Assembly (NCBI GenBank): GCA_019694675.1
Contig: JAIBBK010000004.1
Location: 1 to 64,000 of the forward strand
Length of the DNA: 64,000 nt
From: Ignavibacteria bacterium
GTDB lineage: Bacteria; Bacteroidota; Ignavibacteria; Tepidaquicellales; Tepidaquicellaceae
Direction: 5' to 3'
Under the pieces are notes generated by a model. That model saw only the letters and a list, made by a program, of their open reading frames with translations, was not told the origin of the DNA and did no database searches. Positions within the stretch are counted from its first letter, which is position 1. Every line of letters begins with the position of its first letter. The translations under genes were made by a program, and so were the position numbers. Positions 22,611 through 53,314 of the stretch are shown piece by piece.

Positions 22611-23181
22611 TCCCAAAACCTCTGATCAATAGAATGAAAATTATCCGCATTCAAGTCTGTCAGTTTTGAGGCCCGGAGAGTTTTGAATTCAAAAGCTAAG
22701 AAAAATGTCTACCTTAACTCTGCAGGAAAAGGGGGGCTTACATATAAATCAGTATTTACAGATTTGAGCTGTGAACATTTGCGGTTACTATTTTGTACTT
22801 ATGTTCTTACCCACCCCCTGCCCCCGCCTGATGTGTTACAGACAAAAAGTCTTGTGTGAATGCCTGGTTATCTTCGTTTAAGTTACAGAAGAGTATTTTA
22901 GCTGTCTGTATCATTTCTGCATCGGTAGATACGTATGGTCCTTTTATTTCAGCTCATTTCATTTTTTGATTAATCTTAGTTTATGAAATTAGATCATTAT
23001 CAGAGGAGCAAATCCATTTTTCAGACCACTCTTCATTAAAATCTTCATAGGTTTTGCAATCCCTACCGGGAAAACTCTGGATTTGGAATAAGTCACAGCA
23101 TTTTTGGAATCTAGTTTGTTTTTGGAGCATTTTCATACAAATTTGTTCTAGACCCTCAAAAATTCGCTGGAATCATCATTT
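22611..23181. other. Intergenic region before the 21-bp array
   Basis: No gene-like frame in either direction. The sequence is mixed, with AT-rich parts around 22880-23000. No tRNA or IS remnant is recognised. Confidence 0.4.
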
Positions 23182-23485
23182 TAGCAGAGCGTCCGAACTC
23201 TTTAGCAGAGCGTCCGAACTCTTTAGCAGAGCGTCCGAACTCTTTTGCTGGACGTCCGAACTCTTTTGCTGAGCGTCCGAACTCTTTTGCTGGACGTCCG
23301 AACTCTTTTGCTGAGCGTCCGAACTCTTTTGCAGGACGTCCGAACTCTTTTGCTGAGCGTCCGGACTCTTTTGCTGGACGTCCGAACTCTTTTGCTGAGC
23401 GTCCGAACTCTTTTGCTGGACGTCCGAACTCTTTTGCTGAGCGTCCGAACTCCTTTGCTAGTTGTCCGAACTCTTTTGCCGGGTG
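23182..23485. repeat. 14-copy 21-bp tandem repeat array
   Basis: Fourteen units at an exact 21-bp period; the core GTCCGAACTC starts at 23191, 23212, 23233 and so on to 23464. From the third unit the sequence before the core alternates strictly between GAGC and GGAC up to unit 13, giving a 42-bp higher-order unit. In the GGAC units it forms the palindrome GGACGTCC. The unit is a multiple of three, so frames stay open on both strands (minus: AKEFGRS/AKEFGRP heptads; plus: VRTLL heptads). There is no signal peptide, no ribosome site and no recognisable flanking protein, so I treat it as noncoding. There are no spacers, so it is not CRISPR. Confidence 0.9.
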
Positions 23486-38172: not shown

Positions 38173-39318
38173 TTAGAATATCCAGTTGATGATCAGCGTA
38201 TAAACCTGAAAATTCTTCCAGTCATCTTTCTTCTCATTGAGAGGCGGCTGTTTCAGACTGACAAAGTCGAACTTAATCTCTAACGGAGTCTTTGAATCCG
38301 TCAGTTGTCTGACAGGAATATTCACTCCGAATCCGTATGTGAATTCATTTGTGCTGAAACCTTCCTCCCTGATACCGTTGATCAGAGTATCGTAAGTCGC
38401 ATTCCGGTTGTCGGTAGTGAAGTATCCTGCCCGAAGCGACACGATCTCGAGAAAAGTGAATTCGAGCCCTCCGTGAAATCCGCTGTAGTATTTTGAATTG
38501 AAGAGGTCTTCATATTCCAGATTCACAAGAAAGTTGTACGACTTCAGCTTTGATGATATTGACCTGTCATCAAGTGACAGTTCATAAGCTGCACCCAGTC
38601 TTAATATTACCGGCAAGGGGTCCGCCTGTGATTCATCAACAGTTGAGTACTCCGCAAAATTGACATTAACAAGGCTTGAGCCAAGATTCACCTTGTGATC
38701 CATCCCTTTGGATTTCAGGTCAAATGATTTTATGACTCCAAGGTCAAAATAGAAGATGTCTTTACTTCCCCCTGAGCCTTGTTCATTGCCTACGGTTAAA
38801 TTATTCTCCATTCCGGTAAAGACATGCAGGAGATTTAGATTTGTTCCGGCGAACAGGCCCTTCATTACTTCCGCTGAATAACTCAGCCGGTAAGTTGTGA
38901 GGTCGGGATCATATGTCTCAGTGCGTACATAATTTCCGTACTCATCGGTGATAACAATGTCATCATCAATTCCATAGTCAAAATAATCGCGGCTGAGTCC
39001 AGCAGTTCCATACTTTCCAAAGTTGTAAGAAGCGCTGAAGTAGTTGTAGCTTGCATCATCCAGATTATAATACGGTTTTGCATAGCTCCCGGTAAGATTC
39101 AATCCTTTTGTTCCCGCCATTCCTGCAGGGTTCCAGTAATAAGACAGGGCATCACCTGTTACGGCCGAAAGCCCTCTTCCCATAGCTTCGGCTCTTGCGC
39201 TTGGCTGTCTGCCGAAGTAAAGCTCCCGAAATTGTCCATTGTAATTCTGTGACAGAGAATCTGATACAGATGAGGCCAGCAAAGTAAGAAGCGTCACCAA
39301 GCAATAGAGTTGTTTCAT
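38173..39318 (-). CDS. PorV/PorQ-family outer-membrane protein, paralog 1
   Basis: 381 residues; ATG preceded by GGAGG. After a signal peptide comes the family signature GRQPSARAEAMGRG ... YYWNPAGMAG (about 38-70), as in PorV/PorQ (consensus ARAxxMGxA ... NPA). The rest is a FadL-like barrel of alternating strands ending in IINWIF with terminal Phe. PorV delivers T9SS cargo to the PorU sortase; paralogs may be substrate adaptors. Two more paralogs lie at 41217 and 42335, with a radical SAM gene between. Confidence 0.85.
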   Translation of the reverse strand: MKQLYCLVTLLTLLASSVSDSLSQNYNGQFRELYFGRQPSARAEAMGRGLSAVTGDALSYYWNPAGMAGTKGLNLTGSYAKPYYNLDDASYNYFSASYNFGKYGTAGLSRDYFDYGIDDDIVITDEYGNYVRTETYDPDLTTYRLSYSAEVMKGLFAGTNLNLLHVFTGMENNLTVGNEQGSGGSKDIFYFDLGVIKSFDLKSKGMDHKVNLGSSLVNVNFAEYSTVDESQADPLPVILRLGAAYELSLDDRSISSKLKSYNFLVNLEYEDLFNSKYYSGFHGGLEFTFLEIVSLRAGYFTTDNRNATYDTLINGIREEGFSTNEFTYGFGVNIPVRQLTDSKTPLEIKFDFVSLKQPPLNEKKDDWKNFQVYTLIINWIF

Positions 39319-39484: not shown

Positions 39485-40810
39485 TCACAGTGCATGTTTT
39501 CGTTTCATGTCCAGGTATTCCCGCCTGAATACAATGTTCATCCCGAGCAAAAATGCCATCATGAAAGGATGTATACTCAAAGACCTTCTTATGATCTGAG
39601 AATACCCGGCAAGTTTGCCGTACAACTCCATGAACCCGTTCTCGCATTCTTTGGCTGTCATTAGTTTGGGAACAAAGAAACAGGTGTTGCAGGCAGCATT
39701 GTAAAAGCTGTTGTTCTTCAGCAGTTCCTGCTCTTCATCAAACAGTATCCTGTTATCCTGCTTCAGCTTCCGGTAAACCCTTGTTCCCGGCACGGGGATG
39801 AGAATGTTCAAAATGGGTATTGATATGTTTCCCGAACTGATAAAGTCGTAAAGATGCCGCGGCGTTTCCTTCGTATCATTGTCGAGTCCGAACATGAAAT
39901 ATCCCGCGACCTTGATACCGCTCCTGTTAATGTTCCTGAGTCTTTCTTTGTAGCTCTGCACCTTATATGACTTATTGACTCCTGCAAGATTTTCCTGGTT
40001 GAGCGTTTCCATTCCAATGAACAGCAGTCTGCATCCGGCTTTGTACAGAAGGTGAAGAACCTCAAGGTCATCGCCAATATCAACAGTAACCTGAGCGCCC
40101 CATTTGAGCTTGATCTTGTTATCGATCATTGCCTTCAGAAGCTGTACAAGGTATTTGCGGTTGTTGTAAATGTTGTTGTCAACAAATCCTGCTTTCCCGG
40201 ATATTTTACTGATGCTCTTAAGATCTTCTATAACAAACTCAATTTTTCGCAGCTTGTAATGTCCTCTGTAAACTGCGGCAGTGCAGCAGAAGTCACAATC
40301 ATTGACACAACCTATACTGCTCAGTACCGGCATGAAGGTAATTTTTTTGTCTGCCAAAATGGAATAGTCAAACGGAAAATTGATATCGATTCCGAGATGA
40401 TATTCCCGTGCCAACTGATTGTTTTCGACATCAGCCAGGATCTTCTTCATATCATTTGGTCCGGGATTGCCATGAATGACGGAATCGCAGACATCAGTCA
40501 GGAGATATGAGCTGAAGTGCGCCTGATATCCTCCGAATATGACAGTCTTATTCCTTCGTTTGAACTCCCGTGCTATTTCAATTCCCTGTGCGATATCATA
40601 ACCCATTGAAGTAACTGCAATCACAGAGGCATCCGTATCGTAATCAATATCATCGAAGTACTGAAGAACAACTTTCTTTTCCCAATCATGAGGCGTAGCA
40701 GCACTCAATGCGGGCATTGCAAGAGAATGAACATAAATGCTGTCGCCTTTGAGCAATACACCGTCTGAAGTTTTGTACGTGGGCTGTATGTAGTAAATTT
40801 TCTTCTTCAT
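39485..40810 (-). CDS. B12-binding-type radical SAM protein
   Basis: I choose the ATG at 40810 (MKKKIYYIQPTYKT), preceded by GAGGG; further upstream open frame belongs to the leader. 441 residues. The N-terminal ~150 residues have a Rossmann-like cobalamin-binding layout (VIAVTSMGYDIAQGIEIARE, KTVIFGGYQAHFSS), though the DxHxxG cobalamin His motif is not obvious. The radical SAM core has C-x3-C-x2-C in GCVNDCDFC, GFVDNNIYNN, GAQVTVDI and MFGLDNDT. Such enzymes methylate or rearrange unactivated carbons. Substrate unknown. It lies between PorV/PorQ-like genes, and its leader is nearly the same as that of the lipoprotein gene at 48309. Confidence 0.88.
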   Translation of the reverse strand: MKKKIYYIQPTYKTSDGVLLKGDSIYVHSLAMPALSAATPHDWEKKVVLQYFDDIDYDTDASVIAVTSMGYDIAQGIEIAREFKRRNKTVIFGGYQAHFSSYLLTDVCDSVIHGNPGPNDMKKILADVENNQLAREYHLGIDINFPFDYSILADKKITFMPVLSSIGCVNDCDFCCTAAVYRGHYKLRKIEFVIEDLKSISKISGKAGFVDNNIYNNRKYLVQLLKAMIDNKIKLKWGAQVTVDIGDDLEVLHLLYKAGCRLLFIGMETLNQENLAGVNKSYKVQSYKERLRNINRSGIKVAGYFMFGLDNDTKETPRHLYDFISSGNISIPILNILIPVPGTRVYRKLKQDNRILFDEEQELLKNNSFYNAACNTCFFVPKLMTAKECENGFMELYGKLAGYSQIIRRSLSIHPFMMAFLLGMNIVFRREYLDMKRKHAL

Positions 40811-41085
40811 TTTGATACCCTCATTCTTAAAGTTTAAAGAACACTGAACATTCCTGCCTGAGGCAGGGATCATTTAAACATGAACATAATCTTTACATCC
40901 TTAAAGCTCCCGGTCGTCGGCAGCAATAGTGAGCAATGCTCGACAATCCGCAAGGTCGTTCAAAGGAGAAAGGATATCCGGTAATAGCACAATAAGTTGT
41001 TTCCATGGTCTTTCATTTAGGGTTAGGATCCTCATCTTACTGAATCTCTTCTTTGTGTTGGTGCATAAAATTAGAATCTATCCTA
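40811..41085 (-). promoter_or_regulatory. Duplicated leader/promoter region A
   Basis: This upstream region of the radical SAM gene aligns to 48690-48990 upstream of a lipoprotein gene. Near the starts both have ctcattctta(a/t)agtt(t/g)aa(a)gaaca(c/t)tgaa and CCTGAGGCAGG ... GATCATTT. Farther up, 40997-41060 and 48900-48963 are identical but for one base over 64 nt. Such conservation outside genes suggests a shared regulatory sequence or a recent duplication. Confidence 0.75.
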
Positions 41086-41216
41086 ATTCCCTTTGTCACA
41101 CTTTTGTAAATAATACAAATGTGATTTTCCCGGGATTGGCGGCTTGAAACTGAAATTTCCTGAACTCAGTCCATTTCATCCATCTTTCTCCAAACAGATT
41201 GATTCTGACATGTTCC

Positions 41217-42281
41217 TCAAAATATGATCCCGATTTGAACTGAGATCATCCCTGCTGCACCCCATGATATCTGTTTCTTCTGAAGTGGCGGCTGTTCCGT
41301 TAGCGATGCATCAATGCCGACACTCATAGGAAACTTTGCATAAGGCACTTTTTCAATCCGGATTCCGAATCCGTATGTGAATTGGCTCACACTTGTATTG
41401 CAATCCTCGCAATCCCTCAGATCCTGAGCGAAGTATCCTGCTCTCAGAACGAGCCATTCAAAAAAAGTAAGTTCAAGACCGGAGCGTATGGCCTCATAGT
41501 AATCAGAGTTCAGATTGTCCTCATACTCAAGCGTCAGTCCTGCCTGAATTTTGAAGTTCTCCGTGAAATTGTAATTTGCGCCCATACGAAGAATTGACGG
41601 CAGGCCTATCGGCGAGGGCAATGCAGATGATTCATACGGGAATACAAAGATGTTCGACAGGCTGAGCCCGAGATTAAGCTGATGAAAATTCTTGTCTGAG
41701 TGAAAATTGAATGACTTAAGCAGTCCTACATCAAACCCCGTTCCGAAATCATCAACCTCCTTCTGCATGCCGTTTGCCATGACCGGGCTGTATGAGAAGA
41801 CCGGTTGCAGGAAAGTAATGCCGATCCCCCAGTAGAGACCTTCCGTTACAGGCCTCGCATAATAGATCCTGTCATATGATGTTTTCAGTGCAGTAAGCTC
41901 ATGAACCGAAGGAATTATGCCGCTTGAATCCACCCAACCCGGATCGATTTCCTCAATTATAAGCCCGAAAGTTCCGGTGTTGCCAAAACTGTAAGCAACG
42001 CTGAGATAGTCAAATTTTGCTCCGGGGTTCGCGTAGTAATCTGAGGAATGCGCTAAAGCAGCAAAGCCGCCGTAAAGTATTCCAAGCGATGCAGGATTTG
42101 CATTATGACTGAATGCATCGCCTATCAATGAAACTCCGCATCTGCCGAGGGCTTCTGACCGTGCGCCCGGATACCTGCCGTAAAATGATTCAAAGAATGC
42201 TCCGTTGTACGATTGCGAGATCGAGCGGTCCGAGATCATCGTGAAGGCTATTATCAGTAAAAGTCCGCTATATCTTTTCAT
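41217..42281 (-). CDS. PorV/PorQ-family outer-membrane protein, paralog 2
   Basis: 354 residues. Signal peptide YSGLLLIIAFTMISDRSISQ. Family signature YGRYPGARSEALGRCGVSL then NANPASLG. Beta-barrel strands follow, with FFEWLVLRAGYFAQD and FTYGFGIRI shared with the other two paralogs; the C-terminus is IGIIF (terminal Phe). About 30-35% similar by eye to paralog 1. Probable outer-membrane T9SS-associated or lipid-transport barrel. Confidence 0.83.
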   Translation of the reverse strand: MKRYSGLLLIIAFTMISDRSISQSYNGAFFESFYGRYPGARSEALGRCGVSLIGDAFSHNANPASLGILYGGFAALAHSSDYYANPGAKFDYLSVAYSFGNTGTFGLIIEEIDPGWVDSSGIIPSVHELTALKTSYDRIYYARPVTEGLYWGIGITFLQPVFSYSPVMANGMQKEVDDFGTGFDVGLLKSFNFHSDKNFHQLNLGLSLSNIFVFPYESSALPSPIGLPSILRMGANYNFTENFKIQAGLTLEYEDNLNSDYYEAIRSGLELTFFEWLVLRAGYFAQDLRDCEDCNTSVSQFTYGFGIRIEKVPYAKFPMSVGIDASLTEQPPLQKKQISWGAAGMISVQIGIIF

Positions 42282-42334
42282 GACAGATACCCTTTCATTT
42301 ATTCAGATCATCCAGATCAAATATTGCTTTGGCA

Positions 42335-43333
42335 TCAATACCAGTATGTGAATCTCAGAGAATACTGATCATACTTGTCAGCCCCGCTTGTATATGGATC
42401 AAATGAAGGAAGATTCAGCCGTGAGTAGTCAAATATGAATGCGAATTTCGGCTCCATGCCTCTTTCCATGCCGCTGAAGTATCCCGGAAGGAGAATGTTT
42501 ACGCCGACGCCGTAAGTGAACGCCGTATGTGTTTTCTTTCCCGGAACATCCTGCGCAAAGAAACCCGCTCGGAGAAACAGAAGGGGGTCAAGTCCGAATT
42601 CAAGTCCGGAATGAAAGGACTGATAATCCTTTGAATTGAGAACGTCTTCATACTCAACACTTACTATTCCCTTGAAGTACTCCCAGAACATTCTGCTGTA
42701 AGATGTTCCTGCTCTCAGTATCACAGGAAGTTTTTCCGTTTCATTTCCATCTGATGATTCATAGCCTGCCGAATTCAGATTGACGAGGCTTGTTCCCAGG
42801 ACTATTTCATCATGACTGCCGGATTCATCGAATCTGAATCTCTTCATTGCGCCGATATCAAAATACAAGACTGTACCTCCGATTGTATTCCATATACTGC
42901 CGTTGATACGATTTTTGTCGGCATTAAAAATATTTACACTGACACCGGCATTCAGATCTTTGACAATTTGAGATGCGGCTGTTACTCTTATATTGTTCAC
43001 GCCGATGCTCTGGTCATAGCTCAGGCCTGCACCGAAAGTTTCTCTTACGCCGAATACTATGCATCCCATGACGTTGGGTGCTTCAGTGCCCTTTACCGCC
43101 GCACCTCCGTCAATGTTGAGCCCCTTCACTCCGGACAGGCCGGCCGGATTGTAAAAATAGCCGGTGGGGTCGCCCGGTACGGATGCCAGGCTTCTTCCCA
43201 TTGCCTCTGCCCTTGCGCTCGGCTGAGGCCCGAAGAACAGTCCGCTGAACTCTCCGTTGTATGCCTGCGCGAATGTGTTCCCTCTGATAAAACAGATAAT
43301 GAGTATCAGCACAGTATCTATGGTGCGTTTCAT
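42335..43333 (-). CDS. PorV/PorQ-family outer-membrane protein, paralog 3
   Basis: 332 residues, ATG preceded by AAGGAA. The signal peptide ends near FIRGNTFAQ. Signature FGPQPSARAEAMGRSLASV then YFYNPAGLSG, closest to paralog 1. The FLRAGFFAQDV and FTYGVGVNI strands recur, and the protein ends LRFTYWY. Its distance to paralog 2 is 53 bp, so the two are probably co-transcribed. The three likely arose by local duplication. Confidence 0.85.
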   Translation of the reverse strand: MKRTIDTVLILIICFIRGNTFAQAYNGEFSGLFFGPQPSARAEAMGRSLASVPGDPTGYFYNPAGLSGVKGLNIDGGAAVKGTEAPNVMGCIVFGVRETFGAGLSYDQSIGVNNIRVTAASQIVKDLNAGVSVNIFNADKNRINGSIWNTIGGTVLYFDIGAMKRFRFDESGSHDEIVLGTSLVNLNSAGYESSDGNETEKLPVILRAGTSYSRMFWEYFKGIVSVEYEDVLNSKDYQSFHSGLEFGLDPLLFLRAGFFAQDVPGKKTHTAFTYGVGVNILLPGYFSGMERGMEPKFAFIFDYSRLNLPSFDPYTSGADKYDQYSLRFTYWY

Positions 43334-43459
43334 GATGTCTTTTTCCTTTCAAAATTTAGAGCATAATTTGAATAAAAGGTGCTGGTCAATTTGTTGTCTC
43401 ATTTGAGTTTCAGTTCACATGTCAGGTTTCGACGCTGATGATTGCAGAGCGATTTCTTC

Positions 43460-45568
43460 TCACTTCACCAGCATCATCCTCTTCACATCCGTAAAATCAT
43501 CAGTCTCAAGTTTGTAAAAATACACCCCGCTCGCAAACCCGCTTCCGTCAAACTCTACCTCATACGTTCCCGGCAACTGTTTTTCATTTACAAGCTTTGC
43601 AACTTCCTTTCCCATGATGTCATACACGGTAAGCCTTGTAAAGCCTGCAGACTGTATCTTATATGTGATTTTCGTTGCCGGGTTGAAGGGGTTGGGATAG
43701 TTCTGACTCAAATTGAAATTGTAAGGAATCTGAACATGAGTTTTTTGTACTTCTGTAGTTACACCTCCGGTTGTTGTTTTGAGTATTGTACCGGCGTCCC
43801 CTGCAGTCCAGACGGTGTATTTGTCCGTGGCAAATACAGAAAACAGCCAAGAGATTGTTCCGCTCAAGAGAATTGACCAGCTTGCTCCGCCATTTGTTGT
43901 CTTTAGAATTACTCCCGAACTTCCAACAGCCCAGCCGGTGTTGTTATCAACAAATTCAACTGAGAACAAATAGATATTTACTCCACTGGACTGGCTTTCC
44001 CAGTTTGTTCCGCCGTTTGTTGTCTTAATAATTATGCCTGACTCTCCAACGGCCCAGCCGGTGTTTGTATCTGTGAAACACACTGACCGCAATACATAAC
44101 TCGACCCGCTTGCCTGGTTAATCCAGTTTGTTCCTCCGTTAGTGGTTTTGAAAATTATTCCGGCTTCACCTGCAACCCATCCGGTATTCACATTTGTAAA
44201 GTAGATTGAATACAACCAGACACTCATTCCTACTGGCATACTTGTCCAGTTTGATCCGCCGTTTGTGGTTTTGAGAATTGTACCATAGCTTCCTGCAACC
44301 CAGCCGGTGTTGTTATCTGCAAAATATACTGACAACAAGGAATTAAATGTCATACCCCCCTGATTGATCCAGTTTATTCCGCCGTTTGTTGTTTTAAGAA
44401 TTGTACATTGTGAACCATAATTTCCTCCCACTGCCCAGCCGGTATAGCTGTCTTCGAAATGAACTGAATACAAAGTGTTAATTGCCCCATTTTGCTGATG
44501 GATCCAGTTTGATCCGCCATTTGTCGTTTTAAGAATTTCTGGTCCGGCTCCGACAGCCCAACCGGTGTTGCCGTTAGGGAAATCAAAGGAGTACAAAGTG
44601 TTATGAACACCGACTGACTGGCGGATCCAGTTTGTTCCGCCGTTTGTAGTTTTGTCTATCAGACCGGTTTCTCCAACTAACCAGCCTGTAAGGTTATCAA
44701 TGAAGCAGGCTGAAGACAATAGATCAAATGATCCTAATGGCAGAGAAATCCAGTTAATTCCTCCGTTTGTCGTTTTGAGAATTGTAGTGTATTGACCGAT
44801 TGCCCAGCCGGTACTATAGTCCGCAAATTGAATTGACTGTAAAGGGTCACTTGTTCCGCTTATCTGATTCATCCAGTTTGCTCCTCCATCTGTTGTTTTC
44901 AGAATCAATCCTCCGCTTCCTGCAGTCCAACCCGTTTTAACATCTGCAAAATAGATTGAGTACACAGCTGAACCGTTTTGCTGTGTCCAGTTTGTTCCTC
45001 CATTAGTGGACTTGTAAATGCCGGAACCTCCCGCTGCCCAGCCATTACTGAGGTCTGTAAAACAAACTGAGCTGAGATAAAAGGATATGCTGCTGTATTG
45101 GACAGTCCAGCTAATTCCACCGTTTGTTGTTTTGAGGATTTCACCGGGCACAGATAATCCATAAGATTCTCCAACTGCCCAGCCAGTGTTGCTGTCTTCG
45201 AAGTGAATTGAATTCAACCATGAGTCTGACCCGCTATTCTGCCTTTCCCATATTGTTCCGCCATTTGTGGATTTTACAATTGTTCCATGCGGTCCCACCG
45301 CCCATCCTGTATTGTGATCAATGAAACAGACTGAATTCAAAGGGTCGTATATGGAGCTTGGCAGATTTGTCCAGTTTGTTCCTCCGTTTGTTGTTCTTAC
45401 GATTGTTCCAAAAGTTCCCACTGCCCAGCCTGTGTTGCTGTCAACAAAACACACTGAGATCAAATTGTTGCCTGTCGGCAAAGGATTCTGCCAGAACCAG
45501 CCGATCTGCGCAAATGCAGATATATGAACTGCAAAGAAAATTACTGATAACGCTGTAAACCGTTTCAT
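43460..45568 (-). CDS. T9SS cargo with 14 YCF48-like repeats
   Basis: Start at the ATG 45568 (MKRFTALSVIFFAVHISAFAQ, preceded by GGGGG); 702 residues. After the signal peptide there are 14 YCF48/BNR-like units of ~42-45 residues (SVCFVDSNTGWAVG, GTIVRTTNGGTNW), consistent with two seven-bladed propellers. The C-terminus is a T9SS type A sorting domain (NYPNPFNP, VYDIMGKEV, SGVYFYKLET, ending VKRMMLVK). The 3' end DNA is close to that of the next gene. Secreted; catalytic motifs absent. Ycf48 in cyanobacteria is a photosystem assembly factor, but here the repeats are simply a binding fold. Confidence 0.9.
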   Translation of the reverse strand: MKRFTALSVIFFAVHISAFAQIGWFWQNPLPTGNNLISVCFVDSNTGWAVGTFGTIVRTTNGGTNWTNLPSSIYDPLNSVCFIDHNTGWAVGPHGTIVKSTNGGTIWERQNSGSDSWLNSIHFEDSNTGWAVGESYGLSVPGEILKTTNGGISWTVQYSSISFYLSSVCFTDLSNGWAAGGSGIYKSTNGGTNWTQQNGSAVYSIYFADVKTGWTAGSGGLILKTTDGGANWMNQISGTSDPLQSIQFADYSTGWAIGQYTTILKTTNGGINWISLPLGSFDLLSSACFIDNLTGWLVGETGLIDKTTNGGTNWIRQSVGVHNTLYSFDFPNGNTGWAVGAGPEILKTTNGGSNWIHQQNGAINTLYSVHFEDSYTGWAVGGNYGSQCTILKTTNGGINWINQGGMTFNSLLSVYFADNNTGWVAGSYGTILKTTNGGSNWTSMPVGMSVWLYSIYFTNVNTGWVAGEAGIIFKTTNGGTNWINQASGSSYVLRSVCFTDTNTGWAVGESGIIIKTTNGGTNWESQSSGVNIYLFSVEFVDNNTGWAVGSSGVILKTTNGGASWSILLSGTISWLFSVFATDKYTVWTAGDAGTILKTTTGGVTTEVQKTHVQIPYNFNLSQNYPNPFNPATKITYKIQSAGFTRLTVYDIMGKEVAKLVNEKQLPGTYEVEFDGSGFASGVYFYKLETDDFTDVKRMMLVK

Positions 45569-45624
45569 GTTACTAACCCCCAATCTTTGTTGATTTATCA
45601 ATTTGTCTGAACTGTGTGATTCGA

Positions 45625-45705
45625 TCAATTAGGAATTAGGAATTGTTCCCAAAATCATCTCAAAGGTTTCCAAACATCGCCACAACAATTCGAAATTCTT
45701 AATTC
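45625..45705. repeat. Dispersed AATT-rich repeat
   Basis: Contains ATTAGGAATTAGGAATTG and, at the other end, AATTCGAAATTCTTAATTC. It is the same kind of sequence found in frame at 18640-18720 and 45883-45920. Confidence 0.5.
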
Positions 45706-47763
45706 TCACTTCACCAGCATCATCCTCTTCACATCCGTAAAATCATCCGTCACAAGTTTATAGAAATACACTCCGCTTGCAAACCCGCTGCCATCAATCT
45801 CTACCTCATACGTTCCCGGCGACTGCTTCTCATTCACAAGCACAGCCACTTCATGCCCGAGCACATCATAGACCGTGAGCTTTACCAAATTCGCAATTCT
45901 TAATTCGTAATTGATAATTGTCTTTGGATTGAAGGGGTTGGGGTAGTTCTGTGAAAGTGAGAATTGCTCCGGCACCTCAGATGAGACAACTCTAACTCCC
46001 ACTTGCGAGAGCGGGCGCCGCCATACTGAGTTACCGGAAGTTCCTGCAAAGACATAACCACTCTCGGTAATGAGTAATGCAGGTACATAGATTCCGGAGC
46101 CGCTTGCCGGAAATCCCGAATTCCACTCACTCCAGCTTGCGCCAATATCAGTGGAGAGATAAGCACCGGAATTCAATGTCCCTGCAAATATGTTGCTGCC
46201 GGATATTGCAAGAGCAGCCACATATCTATTATTCAGCGCCGTCTGAGTCCAGCTTGTGCCGTTATTGGTGGAGAGATAAACACCAGAATATTCTGTCCCT
46301 GCAAACATGTTGCTGCCGGATATTGCAAGGGAATATACAACTCGATTATTCAGCGCTGTCTGCGTCCAGCTTGTGCCGGCATTTGTGGAGAGATACACAC
46401 CGGCATATGTCCCTGCAAATATGCTGTTGCCGGAAATTGCAAGAGCATAAACATATTCATTATTCAGCGCCGTCTGCGTCCAGCTTGTGCCGTTATTGGT
46501 GGAATGATAAACACCAGAACTAAGTGTCCCTGCAAGAATGCTGCTTCCGGATATTGCAAGGGACCGCACATCTCGATCATTCAGCGCCGTTTGCGTCCAG
46601 CTTGTGCCGGCATTTGTGGAGAGATACACACCGGCATATGTCCCTGCAAATATGCTGCTGCCGGATATTGCAAGGGAATACACACCTCGATCATTCAGCG
46701 ACGTCTGCGTCCAGTTTGTGCCGGCATTTGTGGAGAGATACACACCGGCATATGTCCCTGCAAATATGTTGTTGCCGGATATTGCAAGAGAATTTATACC
46801 TTGATTGTTTAGCGCTGTTTGCGTCCAGCTTGTGCCGTTATTGGCGGAAAGATAAACACCAGACCCCCTTGTTCCTGCAAAAATGTTGCTGCCGGCAATT
46901 GCTAGGGACTGCACATATCGATTATTCAGCGCCGTCTGCGTCCAGCTTGTGCCGTTATTGATGGAAAGATATACTCCGGAATTTGTCCCTGCAAATATGC
47001 TGATTCCGGATACTGCAAGGGAATACACACGTCGATCATTCAGTGCCGTCTGCGTCCAGCTTGTGCCGTTATCTGTTGTAAGGAATACTCCACCACTGCC
47101 AAACATGTTTTCACCTCCGGCAAAAACATTATTTCCGCTTGCAGCAAATGAATTAATCTGTACGCCAGATAAACCTGCAGCAGTCCAGCTCCCGCCATTA
47201 TTAGTTGACAGATAAACCTCTGCATATGTTCCTGCAAAAACAGAGTTTCCGTTTGCAAATAGTGAAGAAATAAATGAACCCGGTAAGCCATTATTTACAG
47301 GAACCCAGCTACCGCCATTGTTGGTGGATAGATATACCTCCCCTAAAGTCCCTGCGAAAATATTGTTACCGCTAATGGCCAGAGAGGAAATTTGACGGTT
47401 TGATAAACCTGAAGCAGTCCAGTATCCTCCGTTATTGGTTGAAAGAAATACTCCGCCGCCCATATTGCCGTTTGTTCCAGCGAACAATATGTTCCCGCTT
47501 AGGGCAAGAGCGCTTACATTTTGAATCGGTAATCCATTGTTTACTGCGGTCCAGTTCATGCCATTGTTGGTTGACAGATAAACGCCACCGTTTTCTGTTC
47601 CCGCAAAAATGTTACTACCGGACTCAGCAAAACATTTAACAGTTCCACCATGCGGACCATTTGTCTGAACCCACTGCGCATTGCAGTTATTAATGTTCAA
47701 CGCGCATTGCGTGATCTGAAGCAGTAGAAAAGCTGCTGCAAATATTTTCTTTGACTTTTTCAT
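45706..47763 (-). CDS. T9SS cargo with 14 FAGT-type propeller repeats
   Basis: 685 residues, ATG with AGGAG upstream. Signal peptide about 1-29. It has fourteen units of ~38-43 residues (SLAISGSNIFAGT, GVYLSTNNGTSWTQTALNN) and probably forms two seven-bladed propellers; units 6-13 are very similar at DNA level, showing recent duplication. The T9SS type A domain (NYPNPFNP, VYDVLGHEV, SGVYFYKLVT, ending VKRMMLVK) contains an in-frame dispersed repeat encoding NYELRIANL right after NPFNP. Surface protein of unknown ligand. Confidence 0.9.
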   Translation of the reverse strand: MKKSKKIFAAAFLLLQITQCALNINNCNAQWVQTNGPHGGTVKCFAESGSNIFAGTENGGVYLSTNNGMNWTAVNNGLPIQNVSALALSGNILFAGTNGNMGGGVFLSTNNGGYWTASGLSNRQISSLAISGNNIFAGTLGEVYLSTNNGGSWVPVNNGLPGSFISSLFANGNSVFAGTYAEVYLSTNNGGSWTAAGLSGVQINSFAASGNNVFAGGENMFGSGGVFLTTDNGTSWTQTALNDRRVYSLAVSGISIFAGTNSGVYLSINNGTSWTQTALNNRYVQSLAIAGSNIFAGTRGSGVYLSANNGTSWTQTALNNQGINSLAISGNNIFAGTYAGVYLSTNAGTNWTQTSLNDRGVYSLAISGSSIFAGTYAGVYLSTNAGTSWTQTALNDRDVRSLAISGSSILAGTLSSGVYHSTNNGTSWTQTALNNEYVYALAISGNSIFAGTYAGVYLSTNAGTSWTQTALNNRVVYSLAISGSNMFAGTEYSGVYLSTNNGTSWTQTALNNRYVAALAISGSNIFAGTLNSGAYLSTDIGASWSEWNSGFPASGSGIYVPALLITESGYVFAGTSGNSVWRRPLSQVGVRVVSSEVPEQFSLSQNYPNPFNPKTIINYELRIANLVKLTVYDVLGHEVAVLVNEKQSPGTYEVEIDGSGFASGVYFYKLVTDDFTDVKRMMLVK
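45883..45920 (-). repeat. In-frame dispersed repeat inside a sorting domain
   Basis: The bases encode NYELRIANL within the sorting domain, where other cargo have a strand such as TTITYGIPQAGNV. The DNA matches the AATT-rich element at 45625-45705. The domain length and later motifs are preserved. Confidence 0.55.
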
Positions 47764-47799
47764 CTCACTTACTCCTTAGTTTGAGTTAATGCCTCAAAG

Positions 47800-48153
47800 T
47801 CAATCAAACTCTATCTTACTCAAGACTGCATCTGTTCTTTCCACCGAATTGATTTTCCCAACGGATACACTTTTGATGTCGCTGAATTCGATCTTACCCT
47901 TGAATTGCATTATGGAATCAGAACCTCGTAATTCGTATGTGCCTAACCCGATTATCGAACTGTCGGTAATTTTATAAGTATCCAGATAATAGGTCTTCCC
48001 ATCTTTTGTCAGCACAGTAATTCCTACAATCGGCTCCGGCTTATCAAGATTTGCGTATTCAGCAAAATGCTTTGTTGTCATGCAACTCATCATATATGAA
48101 GCAGATAACATCAGAATCAACGACCTCATGAGTACTCTTAACTTTTTCATCAT
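47800..48153 (-). CDS. Small lipoprotein, tail-less copy (repeat family)
   Basis: Start at MMKKLRV (ATG 48153 or 48150; GAGG upstream). ~117 residues. A lipobox-like MMSC follows a short hydrophobic stretch. The domain (ITVLTKDGKTYYLDTYKI, DSSIIGLGTYELRG, GKIEFSDIKSVSVGKI) is nearly identical to that of the gene at 48309. After SVGKIN it diverges: the hydrophobic tail is replaced by SVERTDAVLSKIEFD. The DNA of both genes aligns over ~345 bp, including their 5' leaders, so this is a tandem duplicate with an altered 3' end. Confidence 0.7.
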   Translation of the reverse strand: MMKKLRVLMRSLILMLSASYMMSCMTTKHFAEYANLDKPEPIVGITVLTKDGKTYYLDTYKITDSSIIGLGTYELRGSDSIMQFKGKIEFSDIKSVSVGKINSVERTDAVLSKIEFD

Positions 48154-48234
48154 AGTAACCTCATTCTTTAAGTTGAAGAACATTGAACATTTCCCAGTCC
48201 GGCCAGGCATTTGATCATTGAAACATTGGTACGA

Positions 48235-48300
48235 TAGTACCAATACCAGCTGTACCAATACCTACTTATTAATGCTGTTAACAGTGTCTCCTGGTTCGAT
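48235..48300 (-). pseudogene. Remnant of a third copy's 3' end
   Basis: Reading the minus strand, cactgttaacagcattaata and ggtattggtacagct match the 3' end of the lipoprotein gene at 48309 (gcactgttagtagccttca and ggtattggcacagct). It lies just upstream of the tail-less copy, as expected for a deleted or recombined third copy. Confidence 0.5.
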
Positions 48301-48308
48301 TAACCATA

Positions 48309-48689
48309 TCAATGAGCTGTGCCAATACCAATTATGAAGGCTACTAACAGTGCTCCGGCAATTATACCGATGGTCGCAACGACATTGATTTTCCCAACGG
48401 ATACACTTTTGATGTCGCTGAATTCGATCTTACCCTTGAATTGCATTATAGAATCAGAACCTCGTAATTCGTATGTGCCTAACCCGATTATCGAACTGTC
48501 GGCTATTTTATAAGTATCCAGATAATAGGTCTTCCCATCTTTTGTCAGCACAGTAATTCCTTCAATTGGCTCCGGCTTATCAAGATTCGCATATTCAGCA
48601 AAGTACTTTGTTGTCATGCAACTCATCAGATACGAAGCAGATAACATCAGAATCAACAACCTCATGAGTACTCTTAGCTTTTTCATCAT
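48309..48689 (-). CDS. Small lipoprotein with hydrophobic tail (repeat family)
   Basis: Start at MMKKLRV (ATG 48689 or 48686). ~126 residues. Lipobox-like LMSC after LLILMLSASY. The beta domain has ITVLTKDGKTYYLDTYKI and FSDIKSVSVGKIN, followed by a single hydrophobic glycine-containing segment VVATIGIIAGALLVAFIIGI at the end. If the lipid anchor and the tail are both real, both ends would be membrane-attached, an unusual layout. Its ~300 bp leader is shared with the radical SAM gene at 39485. Confidence 0.7.
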   Translation of the reverse strand: MMKKLRVLMRLLILMLSASYLMSCMTTKYFAEYANLDKPEPIEGITVLTKDGKTYYLDTYKIADSSIIGLGTYELRGSDSIMQFKGKIEFSDIKSVSVGKINVVATIGIIAGALLVAFIIGIGTAH

Positions 48690-48990
48690 AGTAACCTCAT
48701 TCTTATAGTTGAAGAACATTGAATATTCCAGCCTGAGGCAGGCAGAGATCATTTGACTAACGTGATTCTCTTCGACCGGTCAAATCCTTATCCTAAGCCA
48801 GCCGAATAACTGCCCGCCTATATTAAATTGGCGATAAACACATTTCGCCAATCCGCAACATCAAATAACGGAAACAGGATATTGTTATGACAAAAGACAT
48901 TGTTTCCATGGTCTTTCATTTAGGGTTAGGATCCTGATCTTACTGAATCTCTTCTTTGTGTTGTTTAATAAATTCAGAATCTGCCGTAAA
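48690..48990 (-). promoter_or_regulatory. Duplicated leader/promoter region B
   Basis: Counterpart of region A at 40811-41085. The 64-nt block 48900-48963 (ttgtttccatggtctttcat to ctttgtgttg) has one mismatch to its partner. Between block and gene lies CCTGAGGCAGG ... GATCATTTGA. Confidence 0.75.
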
Positions 48991-49252
48991 TCCAGCAACA
49001 AGTGTGCAGAGATCACTTGAATGCTGAAGCAATTGTAAGACAGCAGGTTCATTTTCCAGATCCCTTATTCACCTGACAGAACTGAGTCTGTTGTTCAGAG
49101 AATCATCAGGGTATAAGGTCATTCAGTGTGTTAAGTGGAACGAACCTGCAATCAATACAATGGGACAAGATCGGATCACAGAACGTATTCCTAAGATCAA
49201 TGATCCGGTTACGTTGTCAGTGATCTGCGAGATTTCATTGCTCATTCCTTTG
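48991..49252. other. Intergenic region, no gene seen
   Basis: No supported frame, tRNA or repeat beyond the leader region. Confidence 0.35.
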
Positions 49253-51484: not shown

Positions 51485-51492
51485 GCACTTCC

Positions 51493-51701
51493 GCCCACGA
51501 ATAAATTCGTGGGCTGTGGTTTGAATGTGCAATGCTACTACCCGCGAATGAATTCGCATACTATCGCCCACGAATAAATTCGTGGGCTGTGTGTTGAACA
51601 TGCGGAGGATTTATTAAACGCACGTAATGAACGCCCACGAATAAATTCGTGGGCTGTGGTTTGAACATGCACTGCTTCCGCCCGCGAATGAATCCGCGGG
51701 C
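51493..51701. repeat. Cluster of five REP-like palindromes
   Basis: Three exact copies of the 22-bp palindrome GCCCACGAATAAATTCGTGGGC at 51493-51514, 51566-51587 and 51633-51654, a compensated variant GCCCGCGAATGAATCCGCGGGC-like copy at 51680-51701, and a half-degraded one near 51541. Each is joined by similar linkers (tgtggtttgaa, catgc). It fills the gap between convergent genes. A degenerate member lies near 63097-63125. Confidence 0.85.
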
Positions 51702-51712
51702 TAATGGCTCAG

Positions 51713-53314
51713 TCACTTTATCAACAGCATCCTTCTGCTATCTGCAAAATTCCCGGATTCAATCCGATACATGTAAATGCCGCTTGACAAATTACTGCCG
51801 TCGAAATTAACCTGATATGTCCCGGGGCTTTGATACTCATTTACAAGAGTTGTGACCTGCCTTCCGAGAACGTCGAATACAGTAATATTTACAAAGCCTG
51901 CAAGTCCCACATCGTAACTGATCGTTGTAACAGGATTGAACGGGTTCGGAAAATTCTGATGAAGCTCATATTCTGTAATGTCAGATGACTGAAGCTCCTC
52001 TATTCCGGTCATCTGTGAATACTTGACCGTCATGATGTCTCCTCCATTGCCCTGAACGTTGCCGCTGACATAGACTGAACCGTTCTTGTCCACATCCATA
52101 CAGGTGGCTACATCGTCCGGCTCCGTGCCTGAGCAAGCCATGCACCATTTCATAACCCCGGATGCATCGAGCTTTAAGGTAACAAAATCTCTGCCTGTGA
52201 TTGCATTGATGCAGGTTCCGGTAAGATACACACTGCCCGCCGGGTCAATTTTCATCGCGGATACTTCATCATCCGAGCTTCCGGTACCGTTGTATCTGAA
52301 TGACCAAAGCAGATTGCCTGAAGAATCGTACTTCACGGCTATGTAATCACTGCCTGAACTGTCTTCAATTGTCCCGGACACATAAACGAAATTTGCAGCT
52401 GATGCATTTATCTGAACAGGACGGCATGTTCCGGGATACTCAACAGCCCACTGCAACTGGCCGTTTCGATCATATTTTATGGTTGTCATCAGTTGTTCAT
52501 TGTTCAGTCCCATACACACACCGGCAACGTATATGTTTCCGGATTCATCATTATCCACTGACACTCCGTAGTCTGTGCTATCTCCGGGTCCGTTATGGAA
52601 TGCCACCCATTGCTGAATTCCCGAAGGACTGAACTTCACAGTTCCGATGTCAGTAGTGCGTTGTGCCATCCGGAAATTGTTACCGGTTATAATGATATTT
52701 CCCGAGTCATCAACCGACAGATCTTTTGCATAGTCATTCTCTTCCCCATCAAACATTGCAGACCACATCACGTTTCCCGAAGAATCATATTTCAGAATCA
52801 GATAATCATAATAGAATCCGGGACCTATACAACTTCCGATGCTCACAACATTCCCGGAATGATCAACGACCATATCACAAATACTGCTGCGCCACCCTCC
52901 GTATTCCTCCGACCATACCAGTTCCCCTAGTGCATTATACTTGACAATCAGCGCGCCATCCGGAACTGTAGCGTTAAATATACTTCCCGCCACATATACG
53001 TTCCCAAGATCATCGGATCCAACTACGGCGGCCTCATTAAAAAAAGGCCCACCCGGACATATTGCGCTCCAAAGCAGTGAACCGTTTGCCGAGTATCTGA
53101 GCGTGAGAAAATCTGAGATGCCGAATACACTTTCAGCAGTCCATCCTGCAACAGTAACATTGCCGTAAATGTCTGCCGTAATGGCACGCGAGTACTCGCA
53201 AAGTCCTTGCTGCCCGTTGAATCTTGCGACCCATTCCTGAGTCACCTGTGCATTTGAGCCGCCCGTTAGAAATAATGCGGGCAGTATCATCAAAAGAAGA
53301 AATAGCTTATTCAT
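51713..53314 (-). CDS. T9SS cargo with eight SBBP-type repeats
   Basis: 533 residues, ATG with GGAGG upstream. Signal peptide LFLLLMILPALFLTGGSNAQ. Eight SBBP/PQQ-like propeller units of ~50 residues (LLWSAICPGG, DDLGNVYVAGSI; IKYDRNGQLQWAVEYPG) fill 25-430. The T9SS type A domain follows (NFPNPFNP, VFDVLGRQV, SSGIYMYRIESG, ending RRMLLIK). Eight units point to an eight-bladed propeller. Surface or secreted; no catalytic motif. Confidence 0.9.
   Translation of the reverse strand: MNKLFLLLMILPALFLTGGSNAQVTQEWVARFNGQQGLCEYSRAITADIYGNVTVAGWTAESVFGISDFLTLRYSANGSLLWSAICPGGPFFNEAAVVGSDDLGNVYVAGSIFNATVPDGALIVKYNALGELVWSEEYGGWRSSICDMVVDHSGNVVSIGSCIGPGFYYDYLILKYDSSGNVMWSAMFDGEENDYAKDLSVDDSGNIIITGNNFRMAQRTTDIGTVKFSPSGIQQWVAFHNGPGDSTDYGVSVDNDESGNIYVAGVCMGLNNEQLMTTIKYDRNGQLQWAVEYPGTCRPVQINASAANFVYVSGTIEDSSGSDYIAVKYDSSGNLLWSFRYNGTGSSDDEVSAMKIDPAGSVYLTGTCINAITGRDFVTLKLDASGVMKWCMACSGTEPDDVATCMDVDKNGSVYVSGNVQGNGGDIMTVKYSQMTGIEELQSSDITEYELHQNFPNPFNPVTTISYDVGLAGFVNITVFDVLGRQVTTLVNEYQSPGTYQVNFDGSNLSSGIYMYRIESGNFADSRRMLLIK

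Follow-up and report, generated by a model that had tools for sequence, protein, structure and literature searches.

Homologous leaders upstream of a radical SAM gene and a predicted lipoprotein gene in an Ignavibacteria bacterium, probably derived from local duplication

Comparison with described systems and the genes involved

Regulon operators, riboswitches, and attenuators present a conserved block that is similarly spaced from the start codons downstream, while dispersed promoter-bearing repeats (i.e., MITE- or RUP-like elements) place short non-coding sequences upstream of genes. Another described route to shared leaders is the duplication, segmental or in tandem, of the DNA upstream of a gene, through which a neighbouring gene captures a promoter. 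We compared these systems with a locus found in a window of 64,000 nucleotides (positions 1 to 64,000 of contig JAIBBK010000004.1 of an Ignavibacteria bacterium), in which two related leaders, here designated A and B, precede a radical SAM gene and a small predicted lipoprotein gene, respectively (Table 1). As in regulons and leader RNAs, a block is located at a similar distance upstream of both starts; however, we identified neither further members nor a clear fold, informative covariation, or an Rfam match here. The leaders resemble MITE- and RUP-like repeats in being short non-coding sequences upstream of genes, but only two copies are present, which are neither dispersed nor found elsewhere, and no terminal inverted repeats were found. 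Segmental duplication likewise places homologous non-coding DNA before two unrelated genes at one locus, and a clear tandem gene duplication adjoins the leaders; what differs from this system is that one 64-nt block is much more alike here, so that constraint or gene conversion is needed as well.

All genes concerned are located on the minus strand, and those flanking leaders A and B are co-directional. The radical SAM gene encodes a B12-type protein, for which matches to NCBIfam models (e.g., HpnJ, PhpK, and BchE) all remained under the cut-off; its likely start is backed by an orthologue in L019. The 125-aa lipoprotein, which carries a predicted signal peptide with an LMSC lipobox, matched no family in Pfam or NCBIfam. 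Possible N-terminal extensions of the two open reading frames (from ATG 40873 and ATG 48752) were rejected because indels shift the frame between them, because the MKK starts of both genes are preceded by a GAGG ribosome-binding site, and because the MKK start of the lipoprotein gene also precedes the signal peptide.

Three genes of the PorV/PorQ family are located around the radical SAM gene between 38173 and 43333 (38173-39318, 41217-42281, and 42335-43333), with only the first scoring above the family cut-off. The interval 43460-47763 encodes two secreted, beta-propeller-like proteins that carry type IX sorting tails and extended series of internal repeats of 114-141 bp.

Table 1. Positions in the window of the two leaders, their conserved segments, and the associated genes
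Feature	Positions	Strand	Basis
Leader A, intergenic, upstream of radical SAM gene	40811..41095	-	blastn within genome; global alignment to leader B
Leader B, intergenic, upstream of lipoprotein gene	48687..48995	-	blastn within genome; global alignment to leader A
B12-type radical SAM gene, likely start ATG 40810	39485..40810	-	Pfam PF04055, E 1.2e-13
Small predicted lipoprotein gene (125 aa), start ATG 48686	48309..48686	-	Translation: signal peptide with LMSC lipobox
64-nt conserved block, copy A	40997..41060	-	63/64 identical to 48900-48963
64-nt conserved block, copy B	48900..48963	-	63/64 identical to 40997-41060
Start-proximal conserved segment A, with CCTGCCTCAGGCAGG palindrome and ribosome-binding site	40808..40880	-	Alignment; three copies in assembly
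Start-proximal conserved segment B	48684..48759	-	Alignment; three copies in assembly
Start-proximal segment C, edge of tandem duplication, without 64-nt block	48148..48225	-	Repeat and alignment
Truncated tandem duplicate of lipoprotein gene, altered C terminus	47800..48150	-	87% aa identity over 112 residues; 373-bp repeat at 93%

Uneven divergence of the leaders and a partial third copy

A blastn search of the genome with leader A yielded significant matches only to leader A itself and to leader B, the latter in two segments (151 bp at 80%, E 2.5e-32; 60 bp at 83%, E 1.5e-10). Aligned locally, the two leaders scored 65, as compared to a maximum of 13 across 200 shuffles; the similarity is real and far above chance. 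In a global alignment, 201 of the 279 ungapped columns were identical (~72%), in addition to many gaps, and four zones could be distinguished: (i) approximately 35 bp ahead of the block with ~70% identity; (ii) the 64-nt block itself; (iii) approximately 60 bp at ~65%, followed by ~65 bp that could barely be aligned; and (iv) the final 60-75 bp before the start codons, with ~80% identity. Alignable homology thus spans most of the region between the leader ends, excepting the ~65-bp middle part, and the alignment fades gradually at its ends. A preliminary description of this DNA, made from the sequence alone, had reported nearly identical leaders of ~280 bp, a wording that suits the 64-nt block but not the remainder, given the overall identity and the poorly aligning middle part. 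Its more specific observations agree with our alignments, namely that the block copies differ by a single base, that the block is located roughly 190-210 bp from the start codons (it ends 186 nt before the start in A and 213 nt before it in B), and that further conserved blocks occur near the start codons (60-78 bp, 79-83% identical).

When the alignable columns were permuted, a run of 64 with one mismatch was obtained in 0 of 20,000 permutations; the uneven divergence along the leaders is therefore real. The single difference within the block also counts as low because the tandem copies of the lipoprotein gene downstream of segments B and C show 7 third-position differences across 101 codons, which suggests that weakly constrained sites at this locus have drifted further than the block.

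The preliminary description also mentioned a third, shorter version of the leader before the gene at 47800. We found that this similarity covers only the last ~70 bp of the leader (segment C), lacks the 64-nt block, and forms part of a 373-bp tandem duplication (47848-48219 versus 48384-48753, 93% identity), the unit of which takes in the greater part of the lipoprotein gene, continues for ~70 bp into the leader, and stops there. As the third copy does not include the block, it does not strengthen the argument that a control element is shared. The CCTGCCTCAGGCAGG palindrome near the start is present in A, imperfect in B, and lost in C.

Distribution of the block, the leader, and the radical SAM gene

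The assembly (3.70 Mb in 104 contigs, ~92% complete) was searched by sequence as well as by models built from the block and start-proximal copies; beyond these searches, the analysis of this genome covered stretches of contig C17. It contains two copies of the 64-nt block, located 7.9 kb apart, and three of the start-proximal segment, all on one contig and within 8 kb. The genome-wide search with the block that the preliminary description had called for hence recovered both known copies, each of which precedes a gene, but neither the sequence nor the model searches of this ~92% complete assembly identified a third site upstream of other genes; a pattern search of the assembly with three mismatches allowed returned the two lipoprotein leaders only. 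The block was also not found in 59 relatives, among 391 genomes of the class, or in plasmids, and no exact 22-mer match was obtained in ~85,000 GTDB species genomes or in IMG/VR viral contigs, two collections from which records very near the own genome have possibly been left out. The genomes searched included no second genome of the same genus. A literature search returned nothing bearing directly on this locus.

Several weak matches were rejected. A match in G020 (E 2e-4) corresponds to a palindrome-like stretch rather than to the block and falls between two unrelated genes, immediately following one and 130-190 bp ahead of the other; a match in C37 (34 nt, 83%) falls inside a coding sequence and was attributed to chance, as were weak matches of model R1 in relatives (E 0.005-1), which occurred in nearly all genomes.

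The radical SAM gene has a patchy distribution, with relatives at E<=1e-60 in 15 of the 391 class genomes, and a search for related loci in genome_contigs with its protein yielded a single remote match. When aligned with leader A, the region upstream of its closest orthologue (G022:C338, 79% identical) did not surpass shuffled sequence, which gives no sign that the leader has long belonged to this gene. Comparisons with L018 and L020 were set aside because these minus-strand matches, taken in contig orientation, did not represent the upstream side. Radical SAM relatives that directly follow small lipoprotein-like genes were observed in two genomes of the family (G021 and G022:C77, 46% identical; L038:3762-5737 and L039:2135-5670). 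The lipoprotein-like protein of G021 showed marginal similarity to the lipoprotein of the window (E 0.007), and across the class the neighbours of the radical SAM gene differ in most genomes; for these two reasons, the link between radical SAM enzyme and lipoprotein represents a lead and not evidence.

Origin and possible function of the shared leader

We consider it probable that local segmental duplication or ectopic recombination placed one ancestral leader before two unrelated genes 8 kb apart. One ancestral intergenic sequence would have been copied locally (from A to B or from B to A), by an event at or near the start codon, and the copies would since have drifted apart, with the exception of the 64-nt block. 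Because the copied piece reaches the ribosome-binding site and the start codon, it probably included the promoter and the 5′ untranslated region, and this shared promoter may give the radical SAM gene and the lipoprotein gene similar expression. The third copy resulted from a tandem duplication that carried most of the lipoprotein gene and the last ~70 bp of the leader. Local duplication is common here, as the 373-bp lipoprotein tandem, the PorV-family paralogues, repeat proteins, and other partly intergenic repeats are present on the same contig. At the level of sequence, the leaders share a common descent, are confined to this locus among everything searched, and have diverged unevenly. Duplication and neutral drift alone do not explain a block identical at 63 of 64 positions beside much lower identity elsewhere; the extra identity needs a second cause, i.e., constraint or a short gene-conversion tract, two causes that look alike where only two copies exist. 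The block may thus have been kept alike as a functional core (a promoter or operator region) or have been refreshed by gene conversion.

A reading that gives more weight to constraint is that the block represents a lineage-specific cis-regulatory site (i.e., an operator, an activator site, or a promoter core) co-regulating both genes. Conservation far above that of the flanks, the similar distance to both starts, the low divergence relative to third-codon positions of the lipoprotein copies, and the relatives in G021 and G022:C77 located directly downstream of lipoprotein-like genes are all consistent with such a site; however, the assembly holds no third site, scans for sigma-70 and Bacteroidota-type promoters yielded nothing above chance, the close radical SAM orthologue lacks the block, and the lipoproteins beside the relatives show only marginal similarity, with different neighbours in most relatives, so that we regard co-regulation through this site as rather unlikely. 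Common control by a regulator, as proposed in the preliminary description, is possible as a control element confined to this gene pair in this lineage, but it is accompanied neither by a genome-wide set of sites, given the two copies, nor by sites in relatives. A more specific version, which we hold to be quite doubtful, is that the block is young and genus-specific, arose once, and was copied so as to put a radical SAM enzyme and a lipoprotein that act together under one switch, in which case the lipoprotein-like genes beside two radical SAM relatives would represent the same partnership in the form of an operon. There is a still slighter chance that the shared DNA is not a leader but what remains of a small coding sequence or an insertion element that has decayed. 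In A, a frame of 44 aa (40901-41035) crosses the block and extends into the homologous DNA that follows it, and in B the same frame continues across the block before a frameshift; the minus-strand peptide, however, had no Pfam match even at E<=10 and no relatives in family genomes or phages, the homology reaches the start codons, and no inverted repeats were found at the ends (i.e., no inverted repeat pairs of at least 24 nt in 38-52 kb). With no family above threshold, the block was rejected as protein-coding on either strand.

A structured leader RNA common to both genes (riboswitch-like or an attenuator), also raised in the preliminary description, appears very improbable. In both copies, an A+U-rich hairpin that directly precedes the block retains all of its 9 pairs, one of them with changes on both sides, and the copy-B segment has a slight folding advantage over shuffles (z -1.8). 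Covariation equal to that of the hairpin was nevertheless reached in 247 of 500 shuffle controls, a comparison of little power with two sequences; folding of the block itself does not surpass that of shuffles (z ~+0.7), folding of the whole leaders does so only slightly (z -1.0 and -1.2), no Rfam match was obtained even at E<=1 across the 36-54 kb searched, and the near-start palindrome of A is not maintained in B and C. The remaining proposal, spread of a promoter-bearing element, fits insofar as a single local copying event is meant, but not if a mobile or dispersed element is meant, given that searches of the assembly, relatives, plasmids, and viral contigs revealed no additional copies. 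A regulon, a riboswitch or leader RNA, and a mobile element are hence not supported as general explanations.

If the leader shared through local duplication gives both genes one promoter, the locus would illustrate, on a small scale, rewiring through locally duplicated regulatory DNA, and would hint at a connection between a poorly known radical SAM enzyme and a lipoprotein. Otherwise, it would represent an ordinary duplication in a duplication-rich region, and a caution against calling two similar leaders a regulon.

Repeats of other kinds were also observed on this contig. A palindromic repeat array (GCCCACGAATAAATTCGTGGGC) is located at 51487-51717 and recurs at ~64835-65182, and partly intergenic duplications of 270-530 bp with 85-88% identity are found outside the window (G000:C17:68411-68918, 71858-72128, and 72214-72738). 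A short tandem array with copies 84-93% alike occupies DNA without a long open reading frame at 23180-23479.
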